Virus record (IMG/VR): IMGVR_UViG_3300024324_000075
Location: 1-24,946 of that record
Source: a virus
Length of the DNA: 24,946 nucleotides
Reading direction: 5' to 3' (one strand)
The notes under the pieces were generated by a model. It had not been told where the DNA came from, did not search any database, and saw only the letters and a program-made list of their open reading frames with translations. Numbering within the stretch: position 1 is the first letter of the stretch; each line of letters starts with the position of its first letter. The position numbers and the translations under genes were made by a program. Below are positions 695 through 23,466 of the stretch, piece by piece.

Positions 695-1144
695 TTAATA
701 ATTAGTTTTTCATTTATTCCAAGGAATACATCATTTATTAGCTTCACTTATTTTTCTTCTATGTTCTTCTGAAAATGTTTTTCATAACATCCCATTTCTT
801 CATTTATTTTCTCTATCTTGCATATTATCTTTATGTGTTCAAATCCAAAGATTTGAAACCATATTATTTAATAGTCAGTTAATTGTCTTTTCGGAATAAT
901 GACAGACAGATAAAGAACTATCTATATCAAAATTTAAAAAAGCTTGAGCAACTAATCTATGAACAAAAAAATGTTTTTGTTTTTTATTTTTACTTAAATT
1001 AACCCTACTATATACTTTTTTTATATGAAATTTTCTTATTCTTTCTTTGTTTCTCCGCTTTCAATGTATTAAACTTTTTATCCTCCCATAACTACTAACT
1101 TGATATAATCATTCATATCATTTAATATCTTTCCATATTTCCAT
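695..1144 (-). CDS. HNH homing endonuclease with NUMOD4 and NUMOD3 motifs
   Basis: A 149-aa free-standing homing endonuclease. Residues 3-25 form a NUMOD4 motif (EIWKDIKGYEGLYQVSSYG), in which both glycines of GYEG are TGA codons. VHRLVAQAF (61-69), CH (81-82), NNMVSNLWIGT (93-103) and HKDNM (104-108) follow the HNH fold order. Residues 120-145 (GKTFSEEHRRKISEANKG) are a NUMOD3 DNA-binding motif. Such proteins cut DNA at a target site and spread by repair. The gene sits between the lysis-type genes and the partial peptidase gene. Its ATG at 1144 is preceded by AGATAAA and a structured leader (1161-1225). It has no good Shine-Dalgarno. It ends with TAA. Confidence 0.88.
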
Positions 1145-1160
1145 TTTATCTAAAATTAAA

Positions 1161-1225
1161 GCACTAATACAAGTAGGCTAGTTTGCATAGAAACCTACTC
1201 ATATTAATGCTATAATTTGCAAACT
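1161..1225 (-). promoter_or_regulatory. Predicted pseudoknot leader of the HNH gene at 1144
   Basis: On the minus-strand RNA, positions 1210-1202 (GCAUUAAUA) pair with 1169-1161 (UAUUAGUGC, one G-U). Inside that, 1199-1194 (AGUAGG) pair with 1177-1172 (CCUACU). The apical loop (1193-1178) contains UGCAAACU, the exact complement of AGUUUGCA lying upstream at 1225-1218. This creates a pseudoknot. The 3' end is followed by UUUAAUUUUAG and then the ATG at 1144. Two other HNH genes in the window have leaders of the same plan with different sequence. Confidence 0.6.
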
Positions 1226-1245
1226 ATTTAATTCTATGCTTATCT

Positions 1246-1273
1246 ATTATATACATAAATTAGTAAAAGTAAA
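1246..1273 (-). promoter_or_regulatory. Candidate promoter for the HNH cassette
   Basis: On the minus strand there is TTTACT (1273-1268), a 16-nt spacer, and a perfect TATAAT (1251-1246). It lies about 20 nt upstream of the first strand of the pseudoknot leader, in the gap between two genes. AT-rich DNA produces such matches by chance, so this is only a candidate. Confidence 0.4.
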
Positions 1274-2454: not shown

Positions 2455-3309
2455 TTACATTGGAAACATAAAAAATCCAGCACTAGTATTTCAAGAACCT
2501 GCTGCTTCAACAGCTGTAAAAGTTCAACTAGAAGTAAATGTATGTATTGTTTGTCCTAATACTGTAGTAATAGTTCCTCCTGTACTATCAGTTGAAACTC
2601 AATCACTTCAATCGGTAGCGTAAGAAATTATGATTATTCAATTTCAACCATCTCATCAAGTTCCTCAATTATATCAAGCCCCTCATCCACCTCATCATAA
2701 TCAATCAGTTCAAGCACTTCAATTTCAATCATTTAAGTGATTTCAATTTCATCATCATCCATTACCTCAATCTCAAGCTATAGAAGTGCTAAATGAAGCT
2801 CATCAACCTCATCATCAACCTCAATAGAAAGTACTACTTCACGATATTGAATTGGCTATTCAATTTCAACCATCTCACGATTGAGCCGCATCTCAAGTTC
2901 ATCAAACAGCTCAAGCTCATCATCAACCTCAAGGTGACCAAGTATTACCTACGCCATCAAAAAATGCAACTCATCAATTATATCATTCTCAACTTATTCA
3001 AGTTCAAAATGCTCAAGTTTCAGGAGCAGCTCATCAACCACTACCTCAATTTTTTCAAGTAACACCATCAAAATATCCTCAACCTCATCAACCACTAGTA
3101 GATATACTATTAAAAGAGGAATTAGTTCAGTTAATACCTTGTGCAGAAGCTGTTCATCAATTTCATCAAGTTCATACTGTTACTGTAAGAGCTCCAAATG
3201 ATATTGAAGAAGAAGCTTCATATTTTAATCAACCAGCTCATCCTCAACCTCACATAGATCCTCAACCTCAACCTCATCAAGATATTATTAATGCTTTTAC
3301 ATTAGCCAT
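2455..3309 (-). CDS. Glycine-rich tail/adhesin protein with about 70 TGA codons
   Basis: A 284-aa protein built of glycine runs: an N-terminal LIISGGGGGG, repeated GGGGAGG, GDGGNG and GGGG(N/A)G blocks, STFYGGGGGGGASF in the middle, then GGTGGDGGNGIIIISYATDG. That last motif is characteristic of phage glycine-rich tail-tip or receptor-binding modules. A short C-terminal domain (TITTVLGQTIHTFTSSGTF) follows. I counted 69 TGA codons, often two or three in a row beside GGT/GGA. Read as Trp they would give an implausible Trp-Gly polymer. Read as Gly they rebuild a known protein type. It lies directly after the 1042-aa tail fibre gene, so it is probably a receptor-binding tip or fibre partner. Confidence 0.85.
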
Positions 3310-3331: not shown

Positions 3332-6300
3332 TTATGCTACTCATACACATCTCCATTTTGAAGTAACTGTATTCCAAGCAAATACTACATCTAATCTTGT
3401 ACTTATTACTGTTGTACTTGGCAATGTAACTGTAGAACTTTCAAAACTAGCTCCCCAAGTTATTGCTCTTGCTGTTCAATTATCAGTAATATCGACTCTT
3501 AACATATCTCATTCTACTGGAGTTCCTGAAAGATTAGTAGTAAATGATGTTATTGCTTGCGCTAATCATACAATATGTACCACATCTGTATTATCAGTAT
3601 TTATTGTAGGAATAGCTGCTTGTGTAATTGTGGGAGCTCTTTTTGTGTTTCTCTTATTAGTTACTGTAACAGTATTAGTTAGTGTACTAAAATCATCATC
3701 AGATAAAGCTATATTAAATTGAGCTGTTGTTCAAGTCAATGTATTGCTTGTAAGATTAATAGTTTTAGTAGTTAATGTAGCTGTAGCACTATTTTTTGTA
3801 GCATCACTAGTATTATCTACATTTCATAATCAAACATTTGTTGCAGTTACTGAATGTGGATTAGTAGTTGTATCTGCTATATGTGAATCTATTTGAGCGT
3901 GTGAGTTAGTTCAAACATCTGATAATCAAGTATGCGACCTATTAGTAATTTGTGTAATATTGTCTAAAGTAATATCATTTGGAACTTGTGCATCTGTAAC
4001 AGCTCAACCTAAACTAGATAAAGTTAAGTTTGCTTCAACAACATCAACATCAACTTCATCATTTCAAGTATCATCTGTTATTGTAATTTTAGAACTTCAA
4101 GCATTTAATTTCTTAAATTCTAGATCTACTCAAGTTTTTTGTTTAAATACTCAAACTCAAGCAGTTCAAACATTAGAAGCAGTATTAGTTTCTCAACCTC
4201 AAGCTGTAGGTAAGTTTCAAACTTGTACCATTTTCTTGTTATTGGCATCAGCGCTATCTTCTATAATTATCATATCTCAAATTACAGGAGTTCATTTTTC
4301 TGTAATTACTGATATTTCAGCAGCTACATTATCATGGATAGCATTTGTATCTGTTGTACCAAAACTTAAATTATCTATAGTGTCTAATGCTTTTTGTACA
4401 TCAGTATCAGCAGCACTTAGATTATTATTAAAGTTTGTTATATCTGTTTCAGTATTTAATGCTGAATTATCTATAAATTCTAAAGCTGTTTCTCAAGCAT
4501 TAGCTTGTAATATTTTATTAGCTTGTCATACATAACTACTAGGTACATCTGAAAGTGCTGTAAAATCTGTTACTCATCAACCACCTCAACCTCATCAAGC
4601 TATAGTATTAGGTATTTTACCTCTTAAATCTTGTGTATCTATTAATACATTTTCATTACTTTTAAGTGTAAATGTGAATCTAGCTATTAGGAATCAAACA
4701 GTAGTATAAAGGGCAGGAATATCATATACAGACTGATTATCTGCATCATTTACTGCATCTGTAGGAGAAGCAAAAGCATAACTACCTGTAGGTAAATTAG
4801 CCATTAAATGACAAGTCGTTCAAGTCTTATTTTGTATTCCCCAAACTACTATTGAATAAGAAGTATTGTTTAAACTTACTCATAAAGCATCTAATTGTTC
4901 AGCTCATAGATTTGTAACTTCTTTAAAAGCTGTAGTAGAGTCATTAACTATATGTAATGTATCTCAACTAGCCATATCTAAAGCTGGAAATACTTGGTCG
5001 TGTAATTGATAAACTACTCAAGAAGTATTTGCTATTGTTACTGTATCAGGTGTTCAAGTTCAAGTTCAAACTATAGCAGCACTTCAAGCAGCTCAACTTC
5101 TCCATTTTGGTGGCTCAAGTCTAAGCCTTTCTGATATATGTAATAAATGCCCATTATCTCAATCTGATTTTATATGATCATTTACATTTTGATTAACTAA
5201 TGCTCAATCAGTAACTGTTGCTGTAGCACTTCTAACTACTATATAAGCAACTTTAATATGTTCAGAAGCAGGAAAATCTGTTGTACTAACTGTTAGTACT
5301 TTAGTAGATAATGGAATATATATATAATTTTCTTGTGGATTAGTGTCAGTTCATTGTGTAAGAGTGATAGTTAAAGCAGGAGTTACATCTAATATAGTTA
5401 ATCCATCAGAAAAAATCATAGTTAAATCATTTGTAAGATCTGCATTTACTAAACTACCTGTAATAGTAGCACCATCAGAAGCTATAGTAAATTTTAAACT
5501 TTCTCTAAAACTTCAATCAAAAGCATCATTAAAAGTGTTTGATACAAAAGTTGTTTGATTTACTCAAATTGTTCAATCAGCAGCGGCAGTTTCTACTATA
5601 CCCATTTCTATTGAATAGTTTGGAAATACAGGCTTTGTTTGAGTAAATTCTCAAGCATTTGTTGGAGATATATATATTGGCTCTCAAGCGGTAAACAAAG
5701 ATGTATCTACCCCTCTTACTTTACCAAATATAGTCATTGCTCAAACTCATCATATAGCAACTTCTGTCGTAGTCATAAATATAACTCAACTAATATTATC
5801 TACTAAATCAGCTTGTGCTAATACGAATCAAGTAGGAGATGGTTTTACGAAACTTCAGTTAGGTATTATACTACCTGTAGTATTAGTAAAAACATTACCT
5901 AATTCTTGTCAAAGTTGTATTGAATTTCATAAATCAGTATCTAAATCTAATGTATGGTCTGCTGCACTCCATCTAAGTCTTCAATCTGTGTGTGTAGTCG
6001 AAGCAGGAGTTAAATCAAAATCAGCACTTTCAATATTCTGTAATATTCAAGTATCTGTTTCAGTAACTACTCAATTATCTACTACTGTTCAAGTTGTAGA
6101 ATCAAATCTAACTAAAGCATTATCTGTAGCACTAGCAGGTCATAATGTTGAGCCATCTAGTTTAATTTCATCAGTAGTCGTAAATGATGCTGTAGTAGCA
6201 TCTAAAACAGCTTTATTACTATGTGTATGTCTAGCTGAAGTATTTGCTGCTACATCAGTATTTGCAGAAACTTTAACTTCAGTATAATATTCATTAGTTC

Positions 6301-6460
6301 ATTCTGATAGATCAGAAGTTGTCTTATCTCAGAATATAGTAGTTCATACTTCTGTAATTGTAGCGTCTTTTAAAGCATTAGAATCTGCTGAATCTGCTAA
6401 TGGTAATATATCTCATCATACAGGTGTCTTACCTGTAGTATCTGTTGGGAAAATAGTCAT
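3332..6460 (-). CDS. Large tail fibre / host-specificity protein
   Basis: A 1042-aa beta-rich protein high in Thr, Ser, Asp, Asn and Gly. It has collagen- or collar-like recurring phrases: LTMIFSDGLTILDVTPALTI, YIPLSTKVLTVST, and HIKVAYIVVRSATATVTDGA. A run of eight glycines (NTIAGGGGGGGG) comes about two thirds along, followed by VTDFTALSDVPSSYVGQANK and LQANAGETALEFIDNS. The C-terminus (LSGTPVEGDMLRVDITDNG, ITWGASFESS, KWRCVGVA) resembles the fibre-end modules of many phage tail proteins. It probably forms the trimeric fibre that binds the host surface. It is the largest gene in the window. Many glycines are TGA codons. The start is ATG at 6460 and the stop is TAA. Confidence 0.8.
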
Positions 6461-6482
6461 AGTTTTTATATTAGAAATTATT

Positions 6483-6650
6483 TTATGCCCAAGTAGTAGT
6501 AATTTTTGGTACTAAATTATCAGTTCATCAAGATATAATTTGTATATCAACTCAATCAACATCTTGTATCTGTATTCAATCAACATCTTCAAAAGCTGTA
6601 ACTCATATAAATCTTGGTCTATCCCATTCTGTTATTATTGGTGTTCTCAT
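6483..6650 (-). CDS. Small conserved-looking structural-region protein, 55 aa
   Basis: A 55-aa protein starting MRTPIITEWDRPRFIGVTAF. It contains a short internal near-repeat (GIQIQDVDG then GVDIQII) and ends in TTTWA. It fits tightly between the 578-aa virion protein (23 nt before) and the tail fibre (23 nt after), in the same reading direction, and uses TGA for several Gly residues. I do not recognise the family. Its place suggests a minor virion protein or fibre attachment or assembly factor. Confidence 0.6.
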
Positions 6651-6672
6651 AATAAGTATAATTAAAAATTAA

Positions 6673-8409
6673 TTAATTTCAATTCAATTCCTCTCAAACT
6701 TGAGAAGTTCATATTACTCATGCTTTTTGTAAAAGGTTTTGTATATCTATATCTCATCTTCAATAAATTTGTTTAATCATTTTATTTAATAAAGTATTTG
6801 GATCTCTCATCTTTTCTATTATTTTTACAACTAATGCAGTTTTACTTGCGGCTGTAATTTCTCATCTAGCAGCTTGTCATAATGCAGAAAAAAATCAAAA
6901 TTGTGAAACTATATCATTTCAACTATCTCTTATTTCTTGTGCTACTTTAGCATAAAGAGGTTCTTTTATATTAGAAATTGCAGCATATTCTCTTTTAAAT
7001 CCTTTAACTCATTCTCATACTTTTCATAAAAGTTCCTCTAATTGATTTCAAAGTCTAGTGTTAATTTCTGTAAGGAAAGATTTATTTAATCATTTTGGCG
7101 CTCATTCTCTCAATTCCGTTGCTACTACTCTTTTTAAATCTTCTATTTCTTGAAAAGTTAATTTTTGAGTTTCTCTATTTTTCCAATAATTAACTAATCC
7201 CTCAAAGGCTTCTTCTGTTTCTTTAGTTTGTCCAATTCATGCTCATGTCCTTTGTCATGCTACTTTTGGATCTATTTTATTAAGAATATCATCAGTAATT
7301 CAAGTTAATTGTACAGTTCATGAATCTCAAGCTTTTGCTAATATAGGATTAATATTTTTAGTATAAATATCTTGTTGTCTTTTATTTAATACTTCAAATA
7401 ATTCAAGTCTAGTTGTTGGTTTATCTCAAGTTGCTTTAATTGAATCTAAAACAATTTCAGCATCTTTTTTTACATTTCAAGCACCTAAGTTCTTTAATTG
7501 ACTAGGTTTTAATCATGTTATTTTTCTTAACATATCTACAGGACTTCAAGCTCATACAATTTTAGCTATTCATCAAATAAATGGATTTACTACAGCTCAC
7601 ACAGTTAATCACTCTTTAGTAACTTCTCATTCAGTAACAGCCTCAAATTGAGCCACTTGTCAAGCTCATGTAACAGCTGATTTTAATATATTTCATACTT
7701 TTGGAATATTTCAAATAAGTTCCATTCACTTACTTATTAATGGAGCTTTTCATGCTGGAGTTGGAGTAAAAGCTAATCAATATTTAGCTAAGGTTCATCA
7801 TAATTTAGTTTCTAATCATTCAGGATTTTTAGTAAATTCTTGCTGTATAGCTTCTTTTGTTTCTAGTCATATAGATTTTAATTCATCTCATAATCATTCT
7901 GATTCTTTTGGAGTTAATAAGTCAGCTCAAAATCATAATAAATTTCATACTACTTCAAATCATGTTGATAATGCTCAAATTTTTACATCAGATGGTCTAA
8001 CAACATCTATTACTTTTTCTCATATAGTTTCTCTCCCTGGAATATCAAAAACTGGGGTTTCTTCTATTGTAGTTATAGTTCATAATTCTTCATCAATATC
8101 TATACCTTCTATAGTAAATCCTTTAGATTTATATGAATTTAATAATCAATCAAATATTTCATCATCTGACATTTCTCAAAATTTTCAAGAAGCTTTAGCA
8201 TTATTAAAAGACTCTTGAAATTGCTCTTGAGTTCTTGAGTTAGATTGTTGAGTTTGTATTTGTTGGTCTATGTCTGCATCAATAGCTCATGTATCTACTC
8301 CTAATTTTTGCAAATTAGCAGGAGTAAATTTTTGGTCTTCCTGTTTTTGTCCAGGAAAAGTACCAAATTGTCATTGAGCAAATGCTTGTTGAAAAGTTCT
8401 TTCAGGCAT
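6673..8409 (-). CDS. Putative internal virion / DNA-ejection protein, 578 aa
   Basis: A 578-aa protein with a Gln-rich N-terminus (TFQQAFAQGQFGTFPGQ, then a QQIQTQQSNSRTQEQFQ stretch). The middle is Gly/Ala-rich and moderately hydrophobic (KIGALSTGFEVVGNLLGFGAD, GLTVGAVVNPFIGGIAKIVGAG). The C-terminal half is long, helical and charged (NYWKNRETQKLTFQEIEDLK, LREGAPKGLNKSF). Amphipathic, glycine-rich central segments between helical domains are seen in podoviral internal or ejection proteins. That is an inference from composition and gene order, since no motif was recognised. It follows the 980-aa protein by 10 nt and has a high density of TGA glycines. The start is ATG at 8409, with upstream AATTAATTAATT instead of a Shine-Dalgarno. 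Confidence 0.65.
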
Positions 8410-8419
8410 AATTAATTAA

Positions 8420-11362
8420 TTATTTTATAAATTCATCAAAATCAGTATTTGTAGGAGTTGTACTTATTGTTTTACTTCTAAAAGAAGTTCAAGTAGGTGT
8501 TGTTCATAATTTAAATTCAGGGAATAATTCATTAAATAAATCAATATCATTTAATTTAGTTCTAGCTCTTATTGTTCCTGATTTAACTGTAGACCCTCTA
8601 AAGCTTTCTAACATATTTGTAAATCTTTTAGGATTATCTTTTAATTGTGGTAATTGTGCTGATAATCTTACATATTCAGGTTCAGATACAGCAACTCAAC
8701 TTATAGATTTTACATAAGCTGCTAACATTTTACCTGTTAATTGATCTATTCTAGTAAGTGTTCAATCTCATATTTCATCTCAAACTCTTTTAGCTATAGC
8801 ATTTCATGCCGCTGTAGTTAATCAAGTATCAACATCTAAATCACTAAATAAGTCTTGTATAACTGTAATTTGTTCCTGTACATCTAATGCAGGTGCTAAT
8901 TCATCAAATATAGCCTTGTCTCATAAAATAGCTTGCCTTATTTGATTTTTTAAAGGACTTAAATCTCAATCTCATAAAGCTGATTCTCAAATAGCTCTAT
9001 TAAAATTCTTAACTTGTTCTTTATCAGAAGTCTTAGAACTTTCTCAAGTAACTTCTTCAAATTTTCTAACTAAATCTATGTTATCCTGTCTAAATTGTTC
9101 TATTTTAGTTCACATTTCACTAACTAATCAAACATCAGCTCATAGCTTTGTTTTAGTCGTTTTATCAATAGTATCTGCTCATAAGAATAAATCTATTGCT
9201 GTATTTCTAGCTAATCTATCAGTAACAAAATCCGTATCCGCAATAGCCTCTGTAGTTCACATAAATTGATTTGGGTCTATCCAATTTCAACCTCTTAATG
9301 CAAAACTTCAGTTATCAGATACTCTGTAATCTAAATGACTACCATCTCATCATTCTCATTTAACTACTGTTCAAGTATTTCACATTTCAGCTATAGTTTG
9401 TCCTCTTTTTACTTCATCTCAAACATGTACAGCTGAAGCATTTAAGTGATTATAAACATGTTGATTTCAGTCAGTATCTTCAATAACTATTCTTCTACCA
9501 AATCATCCACTTTCATTTGCTTCTTGTAGAGCAATAACTTTTCAATCTGAAAAAGAGCTAATTATATCTCAAATTTGTCCATCTATATCTATTCATGGTG
9601 TTCATGTTGTTCAATCTGCTAATTTAACATTATCTCTAGTTACAGGAGAAGTTGCTCCATAATTTTGAGTAACAGTTCATGTTCAAGTTTGAATAAATGA
9701 TGTTGGAGTGACTCACTCTGTTCAATCAGCAGGTTTAAATTCAACTTCTCATGTATTAGGATTAAAAACCATTAATCATCAAGATGTAGAAAATCATTGA
9801 AATGCTTTTTTATTTAATTCATTTTGTTTCTCTAAATAAGCTAATTTATAAGATTGATCTTTAGCTGCCGCCACATCTCAATCTTTAATAGCTTGTTTCC
9901 TAGCTTCTTCAGCTCTAGTTATTGACTCTTCTAATAATTTATCTTGTCTAGTTATATCTTCTTGTCTGATAATATCGGTTCTAGTTGTTCAATATAAAGT
10001 ATCTATTAATTGATTCTTTTGATCTAACATAGACATATTAAATTCAAATTCAGCTTTATCTTGAGTATCTGCATATTGATAATCAGCCATTTGATTAGAA
10101 TAAGTTCTTTGTAATGCAAATAATTCATCATCAACAGCCTCTGTTTCATCTCTAGCGATTTTTAATTGAGTAGATAAAGGTAAATTAGGATTCCTTTTTT
10201 TTACATTATCTAATATTCTTCTTTTTTCTACATTTAATTCATCAATCTGACTAGCTGTGTCTTGAGATAATTTTCTTAAATTATTAGTTTCTTCTGTTCA
10301 AGCTTTATAAGTAGAATACATAGTTTCTATGTTTTCAAACATATTAACTTTTGTATCTAAATAATCTTTATCTAACTTTTCCAAAGTTGTTGAATTTTCT
10401 TCTGCTTTAGTTGTAGAAGTTACTGTAGTTTCTCATCAAAAACTCTTATATAATTCTAATGAATTATTATTAATAGAGTCTGTTTTAATTGATGTTTCAT
10501 ATTCCGCTGAAGCCATTAACATAGCAGTTGTTGGTTCTCATCAATTCATTTTAATTAATCTATTCCATGTTTCTCAACCGGTAGCAATTTCATTTGACTT
10601 TAATCATTCTAAATAAATATCTGAAGTAGCTCATTTATATTTAGAATATTTCTTAAAAACAGCAGATGCAGTAATAGCCTCTCTGCTTCATTCTTTAAAT
10701 TTAGCTGAAGTTCAAAATTGATTAATAATATCTAATGCTTCATCAAAATTAGATGGATTAAAAGTAATTCATCATTTTTGATCTATATCAAAAGAAATTC
10801 AAGCATTTTTAGCAAAAGTTTCTTTTTCATTATCCACTATTCATAAAGATTTTCTTATAGGATTTCAAGCCGAATCTATTATCCATTCAAATCTTTCCCC
10901 ATCTCTTATTCAAGTAACTTTATTTCAAACTACCTGTACATCTTCAGTAGTAGTAGTTGGAGAATTTTCTAAAAAATTAGCTAAATTATCTACATTACTT
11001 CACGCAGTCTTAAATTCCCCTAAAGTTTTTATTTCTAGTGGCTTCTCTTCAATTTTTGGTTCTTCAACTTTAACTTCTTCGATTTTTGGTTCTGTGATTT
11101 TTGGTTCTGTAACCTTAACTTCAGGAGGAGTAATAACTTCCCCTGAAGTTAAGTCTGTTGTAATTTGAGATTTATCTTCTGATTTAACTCATTCTGTTGG
11201 AGTTGGCTCTTTAATAGTGTCTGTAGGAGCTTTAGCTCATTCCACTCATCTATCAGTTAAGGTTTGATTAACTTTATCAGCTCAAAACTTATCAATAGCA
11301 GCTTGTACTTTTGTTTTATCTAAATCAGAAACTTGTTTTATTCAATTATTCTTTTCAGGCAT
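8420..11362 (-). CDS. Large virion protein with degenerate M23 (LytM-like) peptidase domain
   Basis: A 980-aa protein. Residues 75-110 are a Glu-Pro-Lys repeat region (VTEPKITEPKIEEVKVEEP). Residues 330-520 are strongly helical or coiled-coil (TRAEEARKQAIKDG). Residues about 585-695 follow the M23 metallopeptidase order: TPGIDIDG, FSDGKVIAL, VYNHLNAS, VHVGDEVKRGQTIAEMGNTG, GSHLDYRVSDNG, WIDPNQF. The HxGxD zinc motif has Thr588 in place of His, though Asp592 is kept. The HxH motif reads H676-L-D678. It is therefore probably catalytically weak or inactive. The C-terminal region is helical. It may be an internal virion or tail-lysin-type protein acting at cell-wall penetration. TGA supplies many of the glycines, including that in PGID. 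Confidence 0.78.
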
Positions 11363-11401
11363 AATCAATTTGTGAGTTATTAATTAAAGTATATTTATTT
11401 C

Positions 11402-11851
11402 TTATCATATTGCAACTAAATGTAAATCTATGCTTAATCCTTGATTTACTGTATGTTGCATCGTAAATCAATCTTCATCAAAACTTCTCATTTTAAACCT
11501 TTGTTGTAATGTTGTTCCTCTATATATATGTACAATATCAGTAGTTGCAGAAGCAGTTATAGAAAATTTATCTCTAAAATTATATAGATTATAATTTATT
11601 GTAGTAAATAATGTTCAATCATCTTGTAATACTGTTTTACTATCTGATTCTGCATCTTGGTTTGTATAAATAGCATTTATCTGTACAGATTTAGGTCTAA
11701 ATCAAGTAACTATTTTAATATCATCAGTTCATGCTATCGCTATAACACGATAATGTGAAGTAAATCTTTTAACTGTTGGTACATTTTTTAAACTAATGCT
11801 GGCATCTAATTTATCTTCAGTTAATCAAGGTATGTTATTTATAACTATCAT
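11402..11851 (-). CDS. Small structural protein, paralogue of the adjacent upstream gene
   Basis: A 149-aa protein. It begins MIVINNIPGLTEDKLDASIS and contains IKIVTGFRPKSVQINAIYTN and DEDGFTMQHTVNQG, with the C-terminus LHLVAIG. The same order of motifs occurs in the gene just upstream, so the two are tandem duplicates that have diverged. The GF(R)PK phrase and beta-rich character recall small phage tail or baseplate-adjacent proteins, but I cannot name the family. The ATG overlaps the upstream stop region by 7 nt (ATGATAG), so coupled translation is likely. The last sense codon is TGA (Gly) directly before TAA. Confidence 0.72.
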
Positions 11852-12321
11852 TCTGCATATATTTGTAAAGTAAATGTGTCATTTCTATTAATATCTACTA
11901 AGGTAAATCATGTATCTGTAATTACTCATATTTTTGCATAAGTTCTAGTATCTTCTATATGCATAGCATCTACAACTGTATTACTTCAGCTTCATAAAGA
12001 TACTAACGAGGAAGTTCAATATTGAGCTGTAACAGTTATAGTTCAATCATCATTTTCAACTGACCAACTTTTAGAAGCAAAAATATCAGGTGTTGTATAA
12101 AAAGCATCTATAAAGATATATTTTGGCCTAAATCATACAGTAATTGTTTGGTCTGTTGTAGTCCCTATAATCCTTTCTCAGCTATAAGTTTTTATCGCAT
12201 CTAATCATCTAACACTAATACTAGCATCTATCTTATCCTCCGTTAATCAAGGTACCACCTCTGTAGATAATTCAAACTCAGGTATTGTTTCAGGTATATA
12301 TTCTGTTATTTCTTCAGCCAT
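11845..12321 (-). CDS. Small structural protein, paralogue of the adjacent downstream gene
   Basis: A 158-aa protein. An acidic N-terminal extension (MAEEITEYIPETIPEFE) precedes VVPGLTEDKIDASISVRGLD, then ITVGFRPKYIFIDAFYTTPD, DDGTITVTAQYG and TDTGFTLVDINRND, ending IYAEG. The core aligns with the 149-aa protein that follows. The 476-aa propeller-like gene ends 1 nt before this one. The gene ends GAA TGA TAG: TGA is the terminal Gly and TAG the stop, while the overlapping ATGATA starts the next gene. Read by the standard code it would lose a residue and the layout would look wrong. It is a likely tail or decoration component. Confidence 0.72.
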
Positions 12322-12322
12322 A

Positions 12323-13753
12323 TTAATCTATATTAGAATATATAAGTTGTATTTCATAAAGTTTAGGTGTAGTAGTTCAATCTGATATAAAATTAATCTT
12401 AAACGCTATATCAAAAAATACATCTTTTTTAGAATATACTTCTGTTTTAGTAATACTTGTTCATGCTATAATAGTTTCAGCAGAAGTAAATGATCATCAA
12501 TCTATACTATATTGTAATTCTATTGTATTATCAACATCACAATCACTTGTAACTAATTTAATTTGTTCTATTTTCTTTTTTTGTATCCTACTTCATCAGT
12601 CTATGATATTTGTTTGTAGGTATCAACTAGGTTTATATGTAGGAGTAGTTGTATTTACATCTATATATTCCATAAATGTTCAGGCTCATGTTTCTATTCA
12701 TATATATAGTCTATCTGTAGCTGTTAATTCTACTCATTTAATAGCGCTAATAGTAGAAATTTGTGTGTCTAAACTATCTTTTGAATAAGGAATATTAAAT
12801 CATTTACTTAGTGTTGGATTTCATGTCCCATATGAAACTAAATCATCAGAAGTTATCCCATCTTGTACAAAATATAATTGATTAGATAATCTTCATCATT
12901 GATTAGTTTGTGAATAAGTGATCTTAAATAAGTAATCTCATAATCTTTCACTATCTCTAGTTAAAAGTAAATCTTGTATAGTATATCAAGTTAGCACTTT
13001 AATTTTTGATTGAAAATCACTCTTTCATGCTAATATATAATCAATTTTACCATCATTAATTACTCATCTAACAGCTTCTTGTACTTCTAAAAATGAATCT
13101 ATAGAACCTGTCTCTCAATCCCAAAATGCTATTGTTCAATTTTCTGTATAAACTTTAAATACTCAACCTGTTCTTGTTAATCATACTATTTCTCAATCCC
13201 ATATATCATAATTTGTAACTATATCATCTTGGTCTACTACAGATACTAAATCTCCATTTCATAAGTAAAACTTAGTATTTAATAAAACAACTACAGGATA
13301 AATATTGGCTGAAGTTGTTATACTATCTCAAGTAGTAGTTATATTCTCTGATACAGTTCATGTCCAATTATTGGCTGCAGCATTAGCTATTGTAATTCTA
13401 TTTAATGGACTAGAATTATTAGTTAGAAAATATAAATATCCATTAAATTGCCAAGCATTTAAAGCTTGATTTCATAAAGTATACTTTAATATTCAAGTGC
13501 TAGCATCATATATTTCTCATCAATCACAATATGCAAAAGTATTACTTCATGCTGTTATAAATCAATTAACTTGTGCAGCAGTAGTATATCTTCATTCTGA
13601 GTCTTTATTTAAACTTACATAGTAACTATTAGTATTCAAATCTAAATTCTCTGCATACAATACTTGTTTTCAAGTAGTTAAAAAATCATCCTGAGATATT
13701 CCTCAAGTGAAGTTTTTAAGGTTTATTCAAAAATGATTTGTTTCAAATGCCAT
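12323..13753 (-). CDS. Propeller/nozzle-like tail protein
   Basis: A 476-aa beta-rich protein with repeated sheet-turn units of the type NGYLYFLTNNSSPLNRITIAN, LLNTKFYLGNGDLVSVVD, GGVFKVYTENGTIAFWDG and INDGKIDYILAGKS. The C-terminal part (GYLQTNIIDGGSRIQKKKI then ELQYSIDGGSF) resembles a domain seen in phage tail nozzle/propeller proteins. Its position after the adaptor gene suits a short-tail nozzle or stabilisation protein similar in role to P22 gp10, which is an inference. It starts at ATG 13753, 1 nt after the adaptor stop. Gly-Gly turns are often TGA-TGA. Confidence 0.68.
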
Positions 13754-13754
13754 A

Positions 13755-14486
13755 TTATAATAGGTTAGGCTCTATAACTATGCTAGGAGATTCTCTATCT
13801 ATAGGATAATCCATATATAATGGACTAATATTCCTATCTGATAATTCCTCAGTAGATTGCTTTCTTTGTCTAATATATTCTTGTTTTTCTGATATAGATT
13901 CTTGTCATTTCCCCATAGCTTTATATATATATGGTAAAATTCATTGAACTAATACTTCATGATGATCTATAGGAATAACCATCGCAGATTCAGTAGTAGT
14001 AGTTTCATAATCTACTATTTTTTTAATTCATTTTAATTCTATTCATGCTGCAGTAGTTGCTGTAGGCATAGGTGCTACAAAAATACTATTATCAGCTATA
14101 TAGTAAATAGGAAATTCTTTATCTTGATTATTTTTATAATAACTCCAATTTCTTTTTAATGATGATAATTTAATCGGTTTAGCTTTTATGTATTTTAATC
14201 CTCAATCATCATAAGTTTCATTATCATAATTAACCGATACACTTGTAACTTTTTTACTTCAAGCTGAGTCGCTAGCCATTAATGGTAATACATATTCATC
14301 TTGATCAGCTACAGTATCAGTAGTGAAAATATCCCAATCATAATCTTCACTTATAGAAGAAACGATATAACTCCAAAAATTATTCTTAACTATGTTTAAA
14401 TATTTAAGAACTTGTGCATCAGGGAATTGTGTTGAATTAGTATGAGATTGATCTCTTGCTAAATCTAATATATCAGATACATCCAT
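13755..14486 (-). CDS. Head-tail adaptor (connector) protein
   Basis: A 243-aa protein. The N-terminus MDVSDILDLARDQSHTNSTQF, followed by PDAQVLKYLNIVKNNFW, matches the helical start typical of phage head-tail adaptor proteins (a D-I-L-x-x-A-R helix, then a pattern of x-D-x-x-x-L-x-x-x-N). The middle contains YVLPLMASDS, KRNWSYY and FPIYYIADNSIFVAPMP, and the C-terminal part includes HHEVLVQGILPYIYKAMGK. Adaptors bind below the portal and lead DNA to the tail. The order (MCP, small protein, adaptor, nozzle) agrees. A hairpin precedes the start, whose context is TTAAATAATTATG without Shine-Dalgarno. Confidence 0.75.
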
Positions 14487-14510
14487 AATTATTTAAGTTA
14501 AATAACAAAA

Positions 14511-14537
14511 ACCAACCCATTATTTATAATGAGCTGA
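14511..14537 (-). terminator. Hairpin with U-rich tail between 50-aa gene and adaptor gene
   Basis: The minus-strand RNA CAGCUCAUUAU pairs with AUAAUGGGUUGG (two or three G-U pairs) over a tiny AU loop, followed by UUUUUG. It lies in the 56-nt gap between the stop at 14543 and the ATG at 14486. It may be a partial terminator or an mRNA processing/stability hairpin. Confidence 0.5.
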
Positions 14538-14542
14538 ATTTA

Positions 14543-14695
14543 TTATTTACCAGCCTTTAAGGTTTTAACTTCTTCAGCAGTAAAATCTCTTCATGTAGTA
14601 TGAAGTTTATGAATTTTAGAATCTAAATCCTTAGAATCTATTCTTTTGTCCACAAGATTACCAGCTTTATTTTCTACTTTTACATTAAGTAACAT
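14543..14695 (-). CDS. Small unknown protein, 50 aa
   Basis: A 50-aa charged protein, MLLNVKVENKAGNLVDKRID at the N-terminus and EEVKTLKAGK at the C-terminus, with one TGA-encoded Gly (TTGRDF). It stands alone between an HNH gene with its terminator (about 70 nt upstream) and the adaptor gene. I do not recognise it. It is likely to belong to the head-completion region that the HNH cassette interrupted. Confidence 0.55.
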
Positions 14696-14750
14696 AGTAA
14701 TAAAAATTATAATATAAGTATTATTATACTATCATTTATATGATTTTTGT

Positions 14751-14782
14751 CAAAAAAAAATGAACTAGATAGATTTAGTTCA
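14751..14782 (-). terminator. Intrinsic terminator overlapping the HNH stop codon
   Basis: The minus-strand RNA UGAACUA pairs perfectly with UAGUUCA across an 8-nt loop (AAUCUAUC), followed by a run of nine U. The TAG stop of the 277-aa HNH gene forms the start of the second arm, so terminator and gene end are fused. It would end the HNH transcript and limit read-through into the 50-aa gene. Confidence 0.8.
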
Positions 14783-15598
14783 TTTTTGTAAATTTGCAGT
14801 TGCTGTGAGAATCTGTAGATTAAATGGTGAATGTAAACCTCATTTAGAAAGAGGTATAATGTGATCAACATGGTATTTTTCTTGAAATATATCTTCCATT
14901 ACTTTTGCTAACTTGTAAAAAAAGGAAGTATTAGATACTGTTACCCAAAATGGTGTTTGATTTAATTTCCTATTTTGTCTGATTCTAACAGATGCTAAGT
15001 GTTTTTCAGGATTTTCTCTTTTCCATTTTCTTCAAGCTTCTAATAATTTATCACGATTTTTAATTCTAAATTGTTTATGTTTTAATTTAAGTAATTCCTT
15101 ATTTTTATTTCTGTATATTTGTTTTTTATATTTTACTTCATCTATATTATTTAAAACATAATTTCTATTTCTTTCAGAAATTTTTTCTTTATATTTTAAA
15201 TAATATAATTTTTCTTTCTTTTTAATAGATTCTAAATTATTTTTTCTATAATTCTTAGCAATATTTATTAATTTCTCTTTATTATTTTCCCTATATTTTT
15301 TACCTTGTTCTCTTATTTTTATAATATTATTTTGTCTATAAATTTTTTGCTTTATTATTAACTGTTCTAAGTTTTGTTTTCTATATTGTTGTCATAATTC
15401 TTTTATTTTCTCTTTATTATCCTCTCTATATTTTTTTCTTTGTTGTTGTATTTTAATATTATTCTTAGCAGTATATTTTGCTCTTATATGTTTTTGACAA
15501 TCTTTACAATTATATCACCTTCAATTAGGTCTTCTATTATCTTTTATAAAGTCTTCTAGTTTTTTATTTACCTTACATTTTGTACATATTTTTCCCAT
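14765..15598 (-). CDS. HNH endonuclease with N-terminal zinc finger
   Basis: A 277-aa protein. Four cysteines at residues 5, 8, 31 and 34 (CTKC ... CKDC) form a zinc finger. Residues 40-215 are very rich in Lys, Tyr, Asn and Ile with repeats of the type KYRENNKEKL, probably a long basic helix touching DNA. The C-terminus HVDHIIPLSKGGLHSPFNLQ then LQKGTKSI is a canonical HNH nuclease, with the second Gly of KGG and the Gly of QKG both TGA codons. It lies just after the major capsid gene, a favoured site for phage homing endonucleases. It has its own leader structure and its own terminator. The base composition is extremely AT-rich, even against its neighbours. Confidence 0.9.
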
Positions 15599-15613
15599 AT
15601 TTTTTAAAAACAA

Positions 15614-15677
15614 AAAAACCAACTCATTTAGTGGAATGAATTAGTTTTTAACTAAGTATAAATACTTACTCCACTAA
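15614..15677 (-). promoter_or_regulatory. Predicted pseudoknot leader / attenuator-like hairpin of the HNH gene at 15598
   Basis: On the minus-strand RNA a 15-bp hairpin forms between 15649-15635 and 15628-15614 (with G-U pairs), and its loop is CCACUA. The loop plus the next base (CCACUAA, 15634-15628) is the exact complement of UUAGUGG at 15677-15671. A small hairpin AAGUAUUUAUACUU (15667-15654) sits between them. A run of U follows, then the ATG 16 nt past the stem. Without the pseudoknot it would look like a simple terminator after the capsid gene, but that gene already has one at 15722-15755. Confidence 0.6.
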
Positions 15678-15686
15678 TTGTAAGGA

Positions 15687-15692
15687 TTTATA
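15687..15692 (-). promoter_or_regulatory. Possible -10 box for the HNH cassette
   Basis: TATAAA on the minus strand, 9 nt before the first strand of the pseudoknot leader. No convincing -35 at the right distance was found. Weak support. Confidence 0.22.
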
Positions 15693-15721
15693 CAGAGAGT
15701 ATACTGATAAATTTAAAAAAG

Positions 15722-15755
15722 TAAAATAAAAAAGAGAGATAATTAAATCTCTCTT
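15722..15755 (-). terminator. Intrinsic terminator after major capsid gene
   Basis: A perfect 9-bp stem, AAGAGAGAU with AUCUCUCUU, has a 6-nt loop and is followed on the minus strand by UUUUAUUUU. It starts 22 nt after the capsid stop codon. It separates the abundant capsid message from the HNH cassette and tail genes. Confidence 0.85.
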
Positions 15756-15777
15756 AATTTTTAGCTTTATAAAGCGA

Positions 15778-16947
15778 TTATGCTTCAGCAGCTTGTGATA
15801 CGATTTGTAAATCATAAATTCTCTCAGCCCCCTCAGAAAAAGTCTTAATTCAATATCTAGCCCAAGTCATATATCTTACTCCAAGTTGTTTTTGAACATC
15901 TTGTACTTTAAGAGATACTTCTTTTTGCATTACTAAATTAATTGCTCCTCTTTCCATAATTAAATTATGAATAGTAACAGCTTGAAAATCATTAGCAGCA
16001 GCAGTCATAGAAGTAGAAGCTACTTTGTAACCTCTTTTAGATTCAATTAATACTTGATCAGTACCATCAGTTGCAGTAATTCATTCCATTTTAGATCTAT
16101 CAGCAGTAGATAATTCTACATATTTAGTTCATGGAGTAGTCCCATTAATCGCAGCAACTAAATTTGTAGCCGATTCATCAGCAGTACCACCAATATCTAC
16201 ATCTCAAGCAAGAGCAGGAGAAGCAACATATGTAAATACTACACCATTAACAGTAACGGTATTAGTAGCAGTTGGATTAGTAGCTAAATCTAAAACATAG
16301 TCAGCAGTTAGATTTGTAGAAACAACTATAGCCATATTTTGAAAATCCCCTCTGTAACCTTTTTTAAATGAAGCATCAGCTACTTTAAAAGTATTACCCA
16401 AAGAAGCTACCCCTATTGTAGATAATTGAAAAGGATCAATAACAGCAACAATGTTTGAACTATCCACACCATCATTTACTAATTGTGCGAAAGTATTACC
16501 ATAAGTTTCTACAGTATTACCTGAAGCACCAGTAGTTAAAGTAATTGGAGCAGCAGAAGCATTATTAGCATTAGAATATTCGTTAAAGAAGTTACCTTCA
16601 ATATCTTGTTTAATTCTATAAGCTGCTTTTGGAGCAGCAGATGCAACAACATCATAACCATTATCAAGATTATCAACATCATCATAAACAAAAGTTACAA
16701 TAGGAGTTTGATTAATTACTAATTGTTCATTAGAAAAATTTAAGTCTTGATCTGTAACATCTGTATATTTTTCGTACGATTGTACATTTTGAAATTCTGG
16801 TCTTGGAAAGTTAATAGTATTCCCATCAGGCATATTAGCCATAAGAGTAGTATTAGCTAAATCCATAGCTACTAGAGTATCTTCTAGTAATGCTTGAACC
16901 AATTTCGTATATTTCTGTTTATTTAAAACAGATACTGAATTAGCCAT
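15778..16947 (-). CDS. Major capsid protein (HK97-fold type)
   Basis: A 389-aa protein. The N-terminus is MANSVSVLNKQKYTKLVQALL. Then come GNTINFPRPEFQNVQSYEKY, the beta-strand LVINQTPIVTFVYDDVDNLD and KAAYRIKQDIEGNFF, a combination common in podovirus and siphovirus coat proteins where DDVD is followed by a long helix. It ends YGIKTFSEGAERIYDLQIVS, the usual strand at a coat C-terminus. It follows the scaffold gene and precedes a strong terminator. The first 247 codons hold no TGA although they contain about 12 glycines, and only four TGA occur in the rest, unlike the tail genes. The start is ATG at 16947 with an AT-only upstream region. Confidence 0.85.
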
Positions 16948-16998
16948 AATAATATGTATTAAAATTTAAAGTTATTTGGTTTTAATACTACTATTTTC

Positions 16999-17565
16999 CT
17001 ATCTAATTTTTCCTTTAAGTCTTTGGTATTCCAAATACTTGTCATTAGGAAGCTTTAAAGCCTCTTCATCAGTTAAATCAGCGAGTTTTTTCCTTACTTT
17101 AACATTAGAGCTTTTAGAACTAAAATCATTGCTAGAACTAGACTCTGTAGGAATTTTAGCTTTTACTAAAGTAAGCGCATCTTCAAAAGACATGTTTGGA
17201 TATTCGTCTAAGGTAGCTTCCATTTGATTTTTATATTCTTTAGCTTCAGGATTTTCTATAGTGAAAAACCTAAACTCTGTCTTATCAAAACCAGTAGAAT
17301 CATCCTCAAATTCATCTTCCTCATCTTCTCAATCACTATCGTTATTAACTAATTTAGCTTTTAAGTCAGCGATTTCTTTATCTTTAGCTTTCATAGCTTT
17401 AGACATCTTTTTCCAATTACTTTTTTTACCTTTAGTAGAGGATGTATTTTCCTCGTCTTCATTTTTAACTTTCGTAGAGGTAGAAGATTCTTCCTCATTA
17501 GTTTCTACTATAGTTTCGTCTTGATCAGCAGACTCATCTATTAGTTCAAAATCTAATTCTGACAT
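16999..17565 (-). CDS. Scaffolding protein
   Basis: A 188-aa, highly charged protein without hydrophobic core segments. Acidic and Ser/Thr-rich residues 1-45 are followed by a Lys-rich coiled-coil helix (MSKAMKAKDKEIADLKAKL), an acidic patch (EDEEDEFEDD), and a basic helical C-terminus (VRKKLADLTDEEALKL then KYLEYQRLKGKIR). This composition directly upstream of the coat gene is typical of phage scaffolding proteins, whose basic C-terminus binds the coat during prohead assembly. Only one Gly codon is TGA. It ends with TAG and the coat ATG comes 51 nt later. A pair of long inverted repeats sits just upstream. Confidence 0.8.
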
Positions 17566-17588
17566 AATTTAATATGTTAATGTTAAGG

Positions 17589-17653
17589 CCATTTAAGGCT
17601 TAGGGTTAAAACCTAAATGGTTGTTATAACGATAATCTCTAGGTTATAACAAC
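17589..17653 (-). repeat. Two adjacent long inverted repeats before the scaffold gene
   Basis: GTTGTTATAA (17653-17644 on minus) pairs with TTATAACAAC (17629-17620), 10 bp perfect. Directly next, CCATTTA (589-595) pairs with TAAATGG (614-620), extendable with GG/CC and an inner GGTT/AACC pair. The two hairpins share base 17620. Neither has a following U-run, so they are more likely mRNA stability, processing or protein-binding structures than a terminator. They fill a 97-nt gap. Confidence 0.65.
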
Positions 17654-17662
17654 TATTAAATT

Positions 17663-18151
17663 TTAATCTTGTTTTTCTTCTTGAGTTGGGGCCTCCTCAT
17701 AAACTGACTCTTCTTTTTCTTCTTGTTTTTCTAATGCAGCTATCATTCAATCTAATTGTGTTTGAAAATATCTGTTATCTTGTACCTCACATCTAAGTAA
17801 ATCAATTTTATCAAATATTTGAGAACTATTTGTTATTCAATATTGATCTCTTATCCCTAGTGTAAGAAATTCTTCTGTTTTGTCAATTTGTGCTTGTAAA
17901 TCTTCTCTTAAAATAAGAGCTCATTCTCATGTATCTTTTATCTCTTCTAATCTATTTCTATTAAATACCATTCTTTGTGCATTCACATCATGATTAGAAT
18001 AAATACAATCATTTTGCTCTGTTGGTATTCAATCCTTATATAATTCTAATATCTTAGATTGTTTAGTCTCTTGTCTATTTTTGCATTTAGTAAGAATATC
18101 TTGAAATTCTTTAGATTCGTTATATTTTCTTAATTCTGTAATTTTAGCCAT
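17663..18151 (-). CDS. Unknown helical protein between portal and scaffold, 162 aa
   Basis: A 162-aa, charged and mainly helical protein: MAKITELRKYNESKEFQDIL near the start, FNRNRLEEIKDTGEG and LREDLQAQIDKTEEFLTLG in the middle, and an acidic Glu/Lys-rich tail (ALEKQEEKEESVYEE). The ATG lies 2 nt after the portal stop, so the two are co-transcribed and perhaps coupled. The position suggests a head assembly role (portal-associated or minor capsid), but I do not recognise the family. Confidence 0.65.
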
Positions 18152-18153
18152 TT

Positions 18154-20058: not shown

Positions 20059-20095
20059 AAATAGCTTTTTTATGTACTAATATAATTATATTAAT

Positions 20096-21805: not shown

Positions 21806-22124
21806 TATTATTAACTATGTTAATTGTTATATTTGCAGGTATTAATTGTGTATTCTTATCATCATCCAATCCTAATAGTTTTAAATTACTTTTAAAAGCA
21901 CTGTCTTTAGCACTAACTATATCAGTTATCCTTAATGATCAATCTTGATGCTCTAATCTCTCTATTAAATTTTTATCAGCTAAATTAATGATTCTCTCAT
22001 TCTGCTTAATAGTATATAACTCAGATGAAGTATCTTCTGTAAGTGAAATGTCCGTGGGGTCGTCTTGAAATGAATCAAGAAATTGTTGAGCCTCCTGTTC
22101 TGTTAATGTCTCTTGATTAGTCAT
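21798..22124 (-). CDS. Putative terminase small subunit
   Basis: A 108-aa acidic protein starting MTNQETLTEQEAQQFLDSF. A second ATG 27 nt upstream (22151) is in frame but lies inside the HNH gene, so 22124 is preferred. The C-terminal half (LIERLEHQDGSLRITDIVSA, then KDSAFKSNLKLLGL) recalls the oligomerisation part of small terminases, which often end with a K-L-L-G type helix. No helix-turn-helix is clearly visible. The strongest argument is position: it overlaps the large terminase start by 8 nt. It has a single TGA codon. Confidence 0.6.
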
Positions 22125-22135
22125 AGTGTGTGAAG

Positions 22136-22690
22136 TTAATAATATTCCCATTTAAATCCTCATGCTGTCTTTTGTTTTCATCTACAAACATCTCAAACAT
22201 GACTTATTCATAAATCTCTTATAATATCAGCTATACTATACCATTTTTTAATAAAATCTCAATTTTTTGTGTATTGACTTATTTTTTTACTAGAATTATG
22301 ATACTTTCAAAACTTTCATAAAGAACTCCTTGGATGATTAGTTTGAAATATTGTCTTGTTTCATAAAATTCTATAAGAATGCTTTTGATTATCGCTATGA
22401 GTACAATATTCAAGATTATTTAAATTATTATTAGATTTATCTCAATCTTTATGATTAATTTTGATTCCCTTTAAACGATATCAAATAAATTCATTCATCA
22501 CTAAAGAATGAATAGTGTGAGCTTTTATAGTTCAATTATTATATAAAATAACTTGCTTATATCATCTAGTGTCTCCATGACTTAATACTCTCTGAGTATT
22601 TGAGTTTTTTACTCTACCATAATTTGATATTTGATATGATCAATTATAAATCACCTGCTTAATATAAGTAATATCTCTCCATTCTTCCAT
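22136..22690 (-). CDS. HNH homing endonuclease with NUMOD4 and NUMOD1 motifs
   Basis: A 184-aa free-standing endonuclease. NUMOD4-like residues 3-28 (EWRDITYIKQVIYNGSYQIS then NYGRVKN). HNH residues 78-104 (INHKDGDKSNNNLNNLEYCT then HSDNQKH), with the Gly of HKDGD as TGA. NUMOD1-type helix-turn-helix at 137-182 (ISQYTKNGDFIKKWYSIADI, then GKQKTAGGFKW) that reads DNA specifically. Gly177 in AGGFKW, at a conserved spot, is TGA. It sits between the iteron region and the terminase genes, and its last bases run to 12 nt before the small terminase start. It has its own promoter-like and pseudoknot leader. Confidence 0.92.
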
Positions 22691-22705
22691 ATTTTATTTT
22701 ACTTA

Positions 22706-22782
22706 AAAAAAGCAAGAATAAGGCAGATTTGGATAACACCTTATTATTACTTTTTTAAAATACCAAATCTTTTAAGTTATCC
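22706..22782 (-). promoter_or_regulatory. Predicted pseudoknot leader / attenuator of the HNH gene at 22690
   Basis: The minus-strand RNA starts with GGAUAAC (22782-22776), then AGAUUUGG (22770-22763). A hairpin follows: AAAAAAG and AAUAAGG pair with CCUUAUU (22723-22717 side) and CUUUUUU, separated by a 4x4 internal loop. Its 15-nt loop contains GUUAUCCAAAUCU, whose halves are complements of GGAUAAC and AGAUUUGG. Only one may pair at a time or in part, so alternative pseudoknots exist. The 3' arm ends in seven U, as in an intrinsic terminator, and the HNH ATG comes about 16 nt later. This arrangement suits attenuation or translational control. Confidence 0.65.
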
Positions 22783-22789
22783 AATAAAC

Positions 22790-22817
22790 ACTATATATAG
22801 AAAATCTCAAAAGTCAA
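22790..22817 (-). promoter_or_regulatory. Candidate promoter for HNH-terminase transcript
   Basis: On the minus strand there is TTGACT (22817-22812), a 16-nt spacer and TATAGT (22795-22790). The predicted start point is near 22783, which coincides with the first base of the pseudoknot leader. It could drive the HNH gene and the packaging and head genes that follow without another visible promoter. Confidence 0.5.
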
Positions 22818-23056
22818 AAAATGCTTATATACTATAGTTACAATTATTTCACACTTTAAATTTAAACTCCCCCTGTGGGGTGGTAAAATTTTTAGTGAAT
22901 TATAAATACATCACATAATGTCTGTTATGTAATATATTATATAGGTTGTTTATGGCTTAAAATAGCCAAAGTATATAAATATAATAACATAGATCTAAAA
23001 ATATGTGTTTTTTGATCTCGAATATGAGCAATTTATATACCTTTTTATATACTTTA

Positions 23057-23415
23057 TTGTTTACATTTTTTTTACAGCTATGTAAACAAATATAGATATA
23101 AAAGGGCTATTTAAAGCCTTTTTTGATTAACTTTGTTTACATATTCTAATTAATTTCATTTTTTTTTTAAAAAGGGGAGTAATATATATGTTTTTATGCT
23201 TAATGGAGAATTTATGTAAACAATGTAAACAAATTTGAAAAATGTCCTTTAAAGTAAACTAAAACCCCTGATTTCAAAAAGTGTTAAAAAATGTAACACG
23301 ATGTAACACTTTCAGAATAAAAATAACAATTTTTAATTGTCAATACCACTTTTAAAAATTTCTTGTTACAAACTTATAAAAAAAATGTAAACAAACCCCC
23401 ATATTTTGTAACACG
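23057..23415. repeat. Iteron-like repeats TGTAAACAA and TGTAACAC
   Basis: Six copies of TGTAAACAA(A): forward at 23081-23090, 23215-23223, 23224-23233 and 23386-23395, and inverted at 23057-23065 and 23132-23141. The first two form an inverted pair around TTTTTTTACAGCTA, and those at 23215/23224 are back to back. A related shorter repeat TGTAACAC lies at 23292, 23302 and 23407, with inverted forms at 23281 (GTGTTA) and 23363 (TTGTTACA). Both families share TGTAA-CA and may be one protein's sites. Confidence 0.75.
23101..23124 (+). terminator. Terminator-like hairpin within the iteron region
   Basis: AAAGGGCT pairs with AGCCTTTT (one G-T) over the 6-nt loop ATTTAA, followed by T-rich sequence on the plus strand. 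The mirror strand also ends in a short T-run, so it may act both ways. No plus-strand gene is seen to be terminated, so the function is unclear. Confidence 0.5.
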
Positions 23416-23466
23416 CCACTTTTTCACACTTCTTTTTTCACCCCCTAAAAACTATACACTTTCGCA

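Follow-up and report, generated by a model that had tools for sequence, protein, structure and literature searches.

The HNH endonuclease gene HNH-1 of a 24.9-kb phage record (the window, that is, the whole stretch of DNA analysed here) is preceded by a leader whose hairpin loop can pair with sequence lying upstream of the hairpin. At the level of sequence, covariation in two related phages that share the window's genetic code, code 25 (TGA = glycine), confirms that this pairing is real and settles the matter. We propose that the HNH-1 leader is a 5′ mRNA leader that acts as a transcription attenuator built on the loop pairing, a reading to which we assign about an even chance. The general layout, seen among relatives, is that of two kissing hairpins situated just past a promoter, the second of which is terminator-like; this layout, which precedes many other phage genes too, has the look of an RNA switch of a kind not yet catalogued.

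Long reading frames are obtained in the window only with code 25. The positions of its three HNH genes and of the elements preceding them are given in Table 1. Several other features of the window were also recorded. The minus-strand frame at 2455-3309 encodes a very glycine-rich protein of 284 aa, in which 69 codons differ in reading from table 11. The long non-coding stretch at 22850-23500 contains repeated GTTTACAT/ATGTAAAC pieces on both strands and is perhaps an origin or a regulator site. An intergenic palindrome (GUUGUUAUAAC / GUUAUAACAAC) accompanied by a further inverted repeat is found at 17600-17657, and the related record L214 has the same. Finally, a strong intrinsic-terminator-like hairpin (15755-15732, minus strand) is located directly after the capsid gene, ahead of the HNH-2 cassette.

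Table 1. Genes and leader elements of the window (all on the minus strand).
Feature	Position	Strand	Description
HNH-1	695..1144	minus	149-aa NUMOD4/NUMOD3 protein, code 25; NUMOD4 5.5e-15, NUMOD3 4e-7; gene behind the studied leader
HNH-1 promoter-like site, TTTACT-16-TATAAT	1246..1273	minus	10/12 match
S0a GCAUAGAA	1232..1239	minus	begins 7 nt past the last base of the -10 hexamer, where the transcript is predicted to start; partner S0b
S1a UAGUUUGCA	1218..1226	minus	partner S1b; previously noted AGUUUGCA at 1225-1218
H2 5′ arm (S2a)	1194..1211	minus	6/18 pairs compensated
S0b UUCUAUGC	1185..1192	minus	inside H2 loop; UGC common to S0b and S1b
S1b UGCAAACUA	1179..1187	minus	inside H2 loop
H2 3′ arm (S2b)	1160..1177	minus	pairs with 1211-1194
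U-rich stretch UUUAAUUUU	1152..1160	minus	at and after stem end; weak as a terminator tail
HNH-2	14765-15622, likely start 15598	minus	HNH_4/HNH domains
HNH-2 promoter-like site	15725-15698	minus	
HNH-2 leader	15612..15693	minus	H1 GUAUAAAU-c-CUUAC(AAUUAGUGGA)GUAAG-u-AUUUAUAC 15693-15656; loops complementary
HNH-2 leader H2	15646-15617	minus	loop CCACUA; U-run 15618-15612
HNH-3	22136-22690	minus	NUMOD4/HNH_3/NUMOD1 domains
HNH-3 promoter-like site	22817-22790	minus	
HNH-3 leader	22705..22784	minus	S0a UUGGAUAAC 22784-22776
HNH-3 leader H1	22775-22755	minus	UUAAAA(GAUUUGGUA)UUUUAA
HNH-3 leader H2	22745-22717	minus	AAUAAGG...CCUUAUU, loop UGUUAUCCAAAUCUG; U-run 22711-22705
Exchanged block	window 22142..22832 / L214 16689-17462	minus	in the window, promoter, leader and HNH-3; in L214, a different HNH and a different leader

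The HNH-1 leader (1239-1145) consists of a hairpin, H2, then a U-rich stretch and then the HNH start codon, and two upstream pieces, belonging to S1 and S0, are complementary to the hairpin loop. A preliminary description of this DNA had reported an 8-nt complement of the loop, which is present and in fact extends to 9 nt (S1), and had overlooked the S0 match, which is complete (8/8). It had also divided the hairpin into parts of 9 bp and 6 bp; the hairpin is there, with a single stem of 18-20 contiguous pairs counting G-U (MFE -30.8 kcal/mol, z -4.55, 0/200 shuffles as good). The S1 match alone is modest: with 60 nt of upstream sequence, 9 nt are reached in 104/5000 shuffles and 7 nt in 1015/5000, so that a lone 7-8-nt loop match is weak evidence, whereas two separate upstream runs of at least 8 nt are rare (3/5000 shuffles for HNH-1 and 0/5000 for HNH-3). 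S0 and S1 are probably alternatives, since both use the UGC of the loop and cross each other. The TTTACT-16-TATAAT promoter described earlier is likewise present; it is not significant alone, since the scan gives 4 promoter-like sites vs. 2.6 in shuffles. A promoter-like site from which an antisense RNA might start also occurs on the plus strand at 1188-1216, but the number of sites is within the shuffle range.

As the preliminary description had it, one leader layout is common to all three HNH genes of the window, different as these genes are: the pseudoknot score exceeds 300/300 shuffles in each, and S0a begins 5-7 nt past the -10-like hexamer in all three. Besides HNH-1, the remaining two leaders have best runs of 8 and 9 nt (42 and 33/5000 shuffles). 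When the whole window is scanned, the HNH-1 and HNH-2 leaders are the best two minus-strand hits and the HNH-3 leader is the fifth; the plus strand has hits down to -30.3, and thus the window scan alone is not specific.

The covariation was examined using two further code-25 records, L105/L213 and L099/L215, whose HNH leaders were aligned to that of the window (mean column identity 74%), with the pairs defined from the window alone. In this trio of sequences, all 24 cells of S0 are paired and 4/8 pairs are changed on both sides; for S1, 92.6% of cells are paired and 1/9 pairs is doubly changed; and for the H2 stem, the values are 96.2% and 6/18. Both covariation scores are matched by 0/500 shuffles. 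Loop-upstream pairing is found in 6 of the 7 non-redundant HNH leaders of code-25 records, with 0, 0, 4, 15, 0 and 3 of 500 shuffles equally good, respectively; two of these leaders, L213 at 780 and L215, were given by the finder a pairing that differs from the S1 of the alignment. The seventh, the HNH leader of L214, yields no pairing candidate. Among the other code-25 leaders (n = 78), 1/78 stands out at 0/200 shuffles and 6/78 at the 1% level, so within these phages the genes other than HNH mostly lack the layout.

L214 also provides a case of cassette exchange. Its identity to window positions 5454-22141 is 99.84%, and the two records align again from 22833 onward (90.6% over 466). At the exchanged site between them, L214 carries another HNH gene (204 aa, HNH_3 4.1e-13), which lives there without the kissing layout. 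Because promoter, leader and HNH-3 are exchanged as one block, leader and gene move together, in agreement with the earlier suggestion of an RNA element that travels with the nuclease gene. Two nearly identical code-25 phages hence have different HNH cassettes and leaders at the same site. In the distant relatives L218 and L219, the capsid gene and its neighbour lie ~300 bases apart, with no HNH-2 match.

Among viral contigs, NUMOD4-HNH relatives often show interleaved repeats, then a U-run ahead of the ATG. In most of them the upstream strand lies inside the loop of a hairpin of 4-13 bp (H1), giving two kissing hairpins; in L039, L044, L079, L102, L113 and L132 the first loop is 8 nt long and the kissing helix comprises 7 bp, and several relatives have, by eye, a short inner stem below the H2 loop. 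The geometry in which a free upstream strand meets the loop, as first described, therefore differs from that of most relatives, and the plain H-type pseudoknot was dropped as a general model. HNH-1 itself has a weak H1 (AAUU/AAUU), which leaves plain pairing of the strand with the loop as its description.

In order to follow the wider class, we used a finder that demands H1, H2, a U-run and loop pairing. Non-redundant leaders that beat all 200 shuffles amount to 24/81 for NUMOD4-HNH, a set that includes leaders chosen by their U-run, and the layout is found in 7/44 of an HNH set not chosen in this way. The corresponding counts are 26/44 for DUF6291 (80/151 loci kept, 75 with a usable start, 44 non-redundant) and 19/26 for Lin1244_N (70/70 loci kept, 69 with a usable start, 26 non-redundant); it should be noted that these two families were picked since their members scored in the control set, so that the frequencies do not stand for genes taken at random. 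The controls with the layout are 10/322 other genes on the same contigs, 4/292 background leaders and 3/36 other code-25 genes (HNH-2 excluded). The background set comprises loci L222-L301 from a scan for the pattern AGTTTGCA-N20-50-TGCAAACT, which is too loose and finds at least 120 stretches. The control genes with the layout include DUF6291, Lin1244_N and one weakly PAPS-reductase-like protein, and an HNH-specific element is thereby rejected. The preliminary description had named an equal frequency in non-HNH genes as a result that would refute it, and DUF6291 and Lin1244_N are families for which this holds. When loops were tested against the upstream strands of other leaders, 19/60 HNH leaders fell in the best 5%; with hairpin energy <= -7, this holds for 18/43 HNH leaders, 9/55 other genes and 4/42 background leaders.

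HNH-2 gave 66 loci, of which 39 leaders were examined, and HNH-3 gave 6, of which 4 were examined. Besides the near-identical copies L139 and L140, the clear layout is seen there only in L174 (0/100 shuffles), while L143/L144 pass by numbers and not by layout. L040, L053 and L059 were dropped from the geometry table, L059 being probably a chance hit. In L137, an HNH leader and a PAPS-like leader share the linker and the outer H2 stem, and their loop pairs differ, each being self-consistent; the sequences suggest that one leader was copied from the other and given a new loop pair. Two additional observations were made on these contigs. In L058, near 1252, the leader of a replication-like gene contains a long hairpin together with a loop-upstream match of 10 nt. 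In L008, L042 and L097, the sequence ahead of the HNH start resembles in its motif a group I intron 3′ core; L008 and L042 have no match at the Rfam gathering threshold.

Alignments of the two non-HNH families also contain compensatory changes. In DUF6291, 97.5% of S1 cells are paired and 6/8 pairs are changed on both sides in a MAFFT alignment that is not structure-fitted, and the whole structure has 69 doubly changed cells vs. 23.0 in shuffles, a value that 0/500 shuffles reach. This alignment holds 16/44 leaders, namely the closer ones, including L354 and L361, which missed 0/200. The Lin1244_N alignment, likewise made by MAFFT and not structure-fitted, holds 20/26 non-redundant leaders, the 6 more distant ones being left out. 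Its 11 ungapped rows, a subset chosen for being ungapped, give S1 as 100% paired, with doubly changed pairs in H1 (6/12), S1 (2/7) and S2 (3/9); in all 20 rows S1 falls to 75.4% paired, because MAFFT misplaces the S1a gap in 9 rows. MAFFT failed to bring H1 into register across the mixed HNH set.

The position of the elements relative to promoter and gene was also considered. A promoter-like TAnnTT motif, which we take to be the Bacteroidota -7 box, ends 1-10 nt ahead of H1 in 19/24 rows, and 4 of the 5 rows that have no such placement are code-25 leaders. On the basis of this motif alone, the contigs of the wider class may be those of Bacteroidota phages. A U-run directly after the hairpin is seen in most relatives. 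In DUF6291 its first base coincides closely with the end of the stem (median -1, sd 1.2) and its distance to the ATG ranges over 0-19 nt (sd 7.2); being tied to the stem and variable in its distance to the ATG, it fits a terminator tail. In Lin1244_N the U-run-to-ATG distance is nearly constant (sd 0.9) and the U-run start varies more (sd 2.4), and the HNH leaders show similar spreads for both measures (sd 2.4 and 2.9). These latter two sets do not separate the readings, and thus the register argument rests on DUF6291. The feature is weak for HNH-1, where the U stretch is interrupted by AA and the terminator rule (loop 3-8) made no call; in HNH-3 the U-run begins 5 nt past the stem.

In the proposed attenuator, transcription would start at or just before S0a, and the nascent RNA would present S0a and S1a (the latter forming the H1 loop in most relatives), then H2, and then the U-run directly before the AUG. 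H2, once closed, would together with the U-run stop RNA polymerase ahead of the gene. If the upstream strand or the H1 loop pairs with the H2 loop, through S1 and here S0 too, this would keep the H2 loop open or strained and oppose full closure of H2, so that the polymerase would pass; the direction of the switch, like its function in the phage, is thus a prediction of the model. In the window, S1b lies 1 nt from the 3′ arm, and therefore full S1 and full H2 could hardly coexist, as expected of a two-state switch. The spacers of the Bacteroidota-like leaders may leave room for kissing alongside a full H2, and the case for competition would then be weaker. We favour the attenuator because of the position of the promoter motif, the U-run register in DUF6291 and the precedent of the guanidine-IV riboswitch, and it is supported by the covariation of S0, S1 and S2 in the code-25 trio, of H1, S1 and S2 in Lin1244_N, and of S1 in DUF6291. 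Against it stand the low number of compensated S1 pairs in the trio, the weak U stretch of HNH-1 and the offset U-run of HNH-3, the limitation of the register argument to DUF6291, the occurrence of the layout in only a minority of HNH leaders when these are not chosen by U-run, and the HNH gene of L214, which does without it.

The structured leader could instead limit ribosome access or set a standby site, as the T4 endonuclease hairpins do. Such translational control, which we consider possible though doubtful, would fit a stable hairpin 15 nt from the AUG, and PMC2988022 offers T4 precedents, including seg43(25), where the hairpin is just upstream of the RBS and does not hide it. On the other hand, inspection by eye reveals no SD-like sequence within the stem or behind it, S1 is not needed for RBS hiding, and the U-run of DUF6291 follows the stem and not the AUG. 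RBS hiding proper, which had been raised as a possibility for this leader, is not supported in view of the 15 nt between stem end and AUG, the U-rich stretch after the stem and the promoter-like site upstream of the whole structure, from which every transcript would contain the hairpin. That the 90-100-nt leader is itself the product, as a small RNA, or serves as a stable cap protecting the 5′ end of the mRNA against nucleases, appears unlikely to us; the leader extends from the predicted transcript start to a U-run, which is small-RNA-like, and the analysis covered elements located ahead of genes.

The location of the leader inside the exchanged block could also be explained at the DNA level, by inverted repeats serving recombination or by footprints of endonuclease cassette insertion. 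This is highly improbable in our judgement, given that the layout also precedes genes not known as mobile, is directional relative to the ORF (promoter-like motif and U-run) and uses G-U pairs. We attach least belief, close to none, to an ordinary terminator of the upstream gene combined with chance loop matches in AT-rich DNA: S1 alone is indeed reached in 2% of shuffles, and controls do score at the 1% level, but the compensatory changes in three separate sets disfavour it, as does the comparison of own with swapped loop-upstream pairs.

The attenuator resembles known systems in part. In the guanidine-IV (mepA) riboswitch, as described in PMC11611296, there are two hairpins whose kissing loops compete with a terminator stem followed by a poly-U tail, the kissing loop being the antiterminator against the terminator stem. 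The likeness is one of architecture only and is found in the relatives, H1 being weak in HNH-1; unlike that riboswitch, the leaders have no Rfam match, have a kissing helix without fixed sequence and precede phage genes. In the pT181-type attenuators (PMC3753616), kissing hairpins also control termination ahead of a gene, but the partner there is a separate antisense RNA, whereas the phage leader has both loops on one strand. The RBS-sequestering hairpins of T4 I-TevI and segB and of Aeh1 mobE share with our leaders the placing of an RNA hairpin immediately ahead of a homing endonuclease gene, and the late promoter of I-TevI leaves the hairpin out of the transcript (PMC2988022). The phage leaders differ from these in having their own upstream promoter-like site, a U-run past the stem and loop pairing, and in preceding non-endonuclease genes too. 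In HNH-1, the stem ends at 1160 and the AUG is at 1144, with no SD in the stem and none by eye in 1159-1145, and the predicted promoter (1273-1246) lies upstream of the whole structure and does not leave the hairpin out.

In the window and in 14 loci, no Rfam 15 family reaches the gathering threshold, and another 14 loci searched at E 0.5 gave no match. Weak matches to mir-2797 and mir-5984 over 1149-1222 were discarded, as they are far below the gathering scores and only reflect the hairpin. Surveys of structured RNAs report palindromic Bacteroidetes motifs near phage genes, e.g. HMP_4078 (PMC8040213, PMC2864571). The leader was not found described in the open-access literature searched, in which key surveys are missing. 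Mechanisms of this type are known; this RNA class and gene set were not found described in a comparison outside which HMP_4078-like motifs fall.

A broader and rather improbable idea is that the leaders form a phage-wide class of RNA switches in which each gene has its own kissing-loop ‘password’. Terminated leader RNAs could then also act in trans, kissing leaders of the same gene as these are being transcribed, and a gene would thereby sense its own copy number or transcription; distinct loops would keep the genes of one phage apart, and mobile HNH genes would have adopted the switch.

Taken together, the analysis describes a widespread covarying RNA structure that is absent from Rfam 15 and occurs in phages of two different genetic codes, and it adds to the code-25 phages, about which little is known. 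With two short complementary loops whose sequence is free, the candidate switch is directly testable and would be useful for orthogonal regulators. It also suggests a way for homing endonuclease cassettes to bring along their own controlled promoter.
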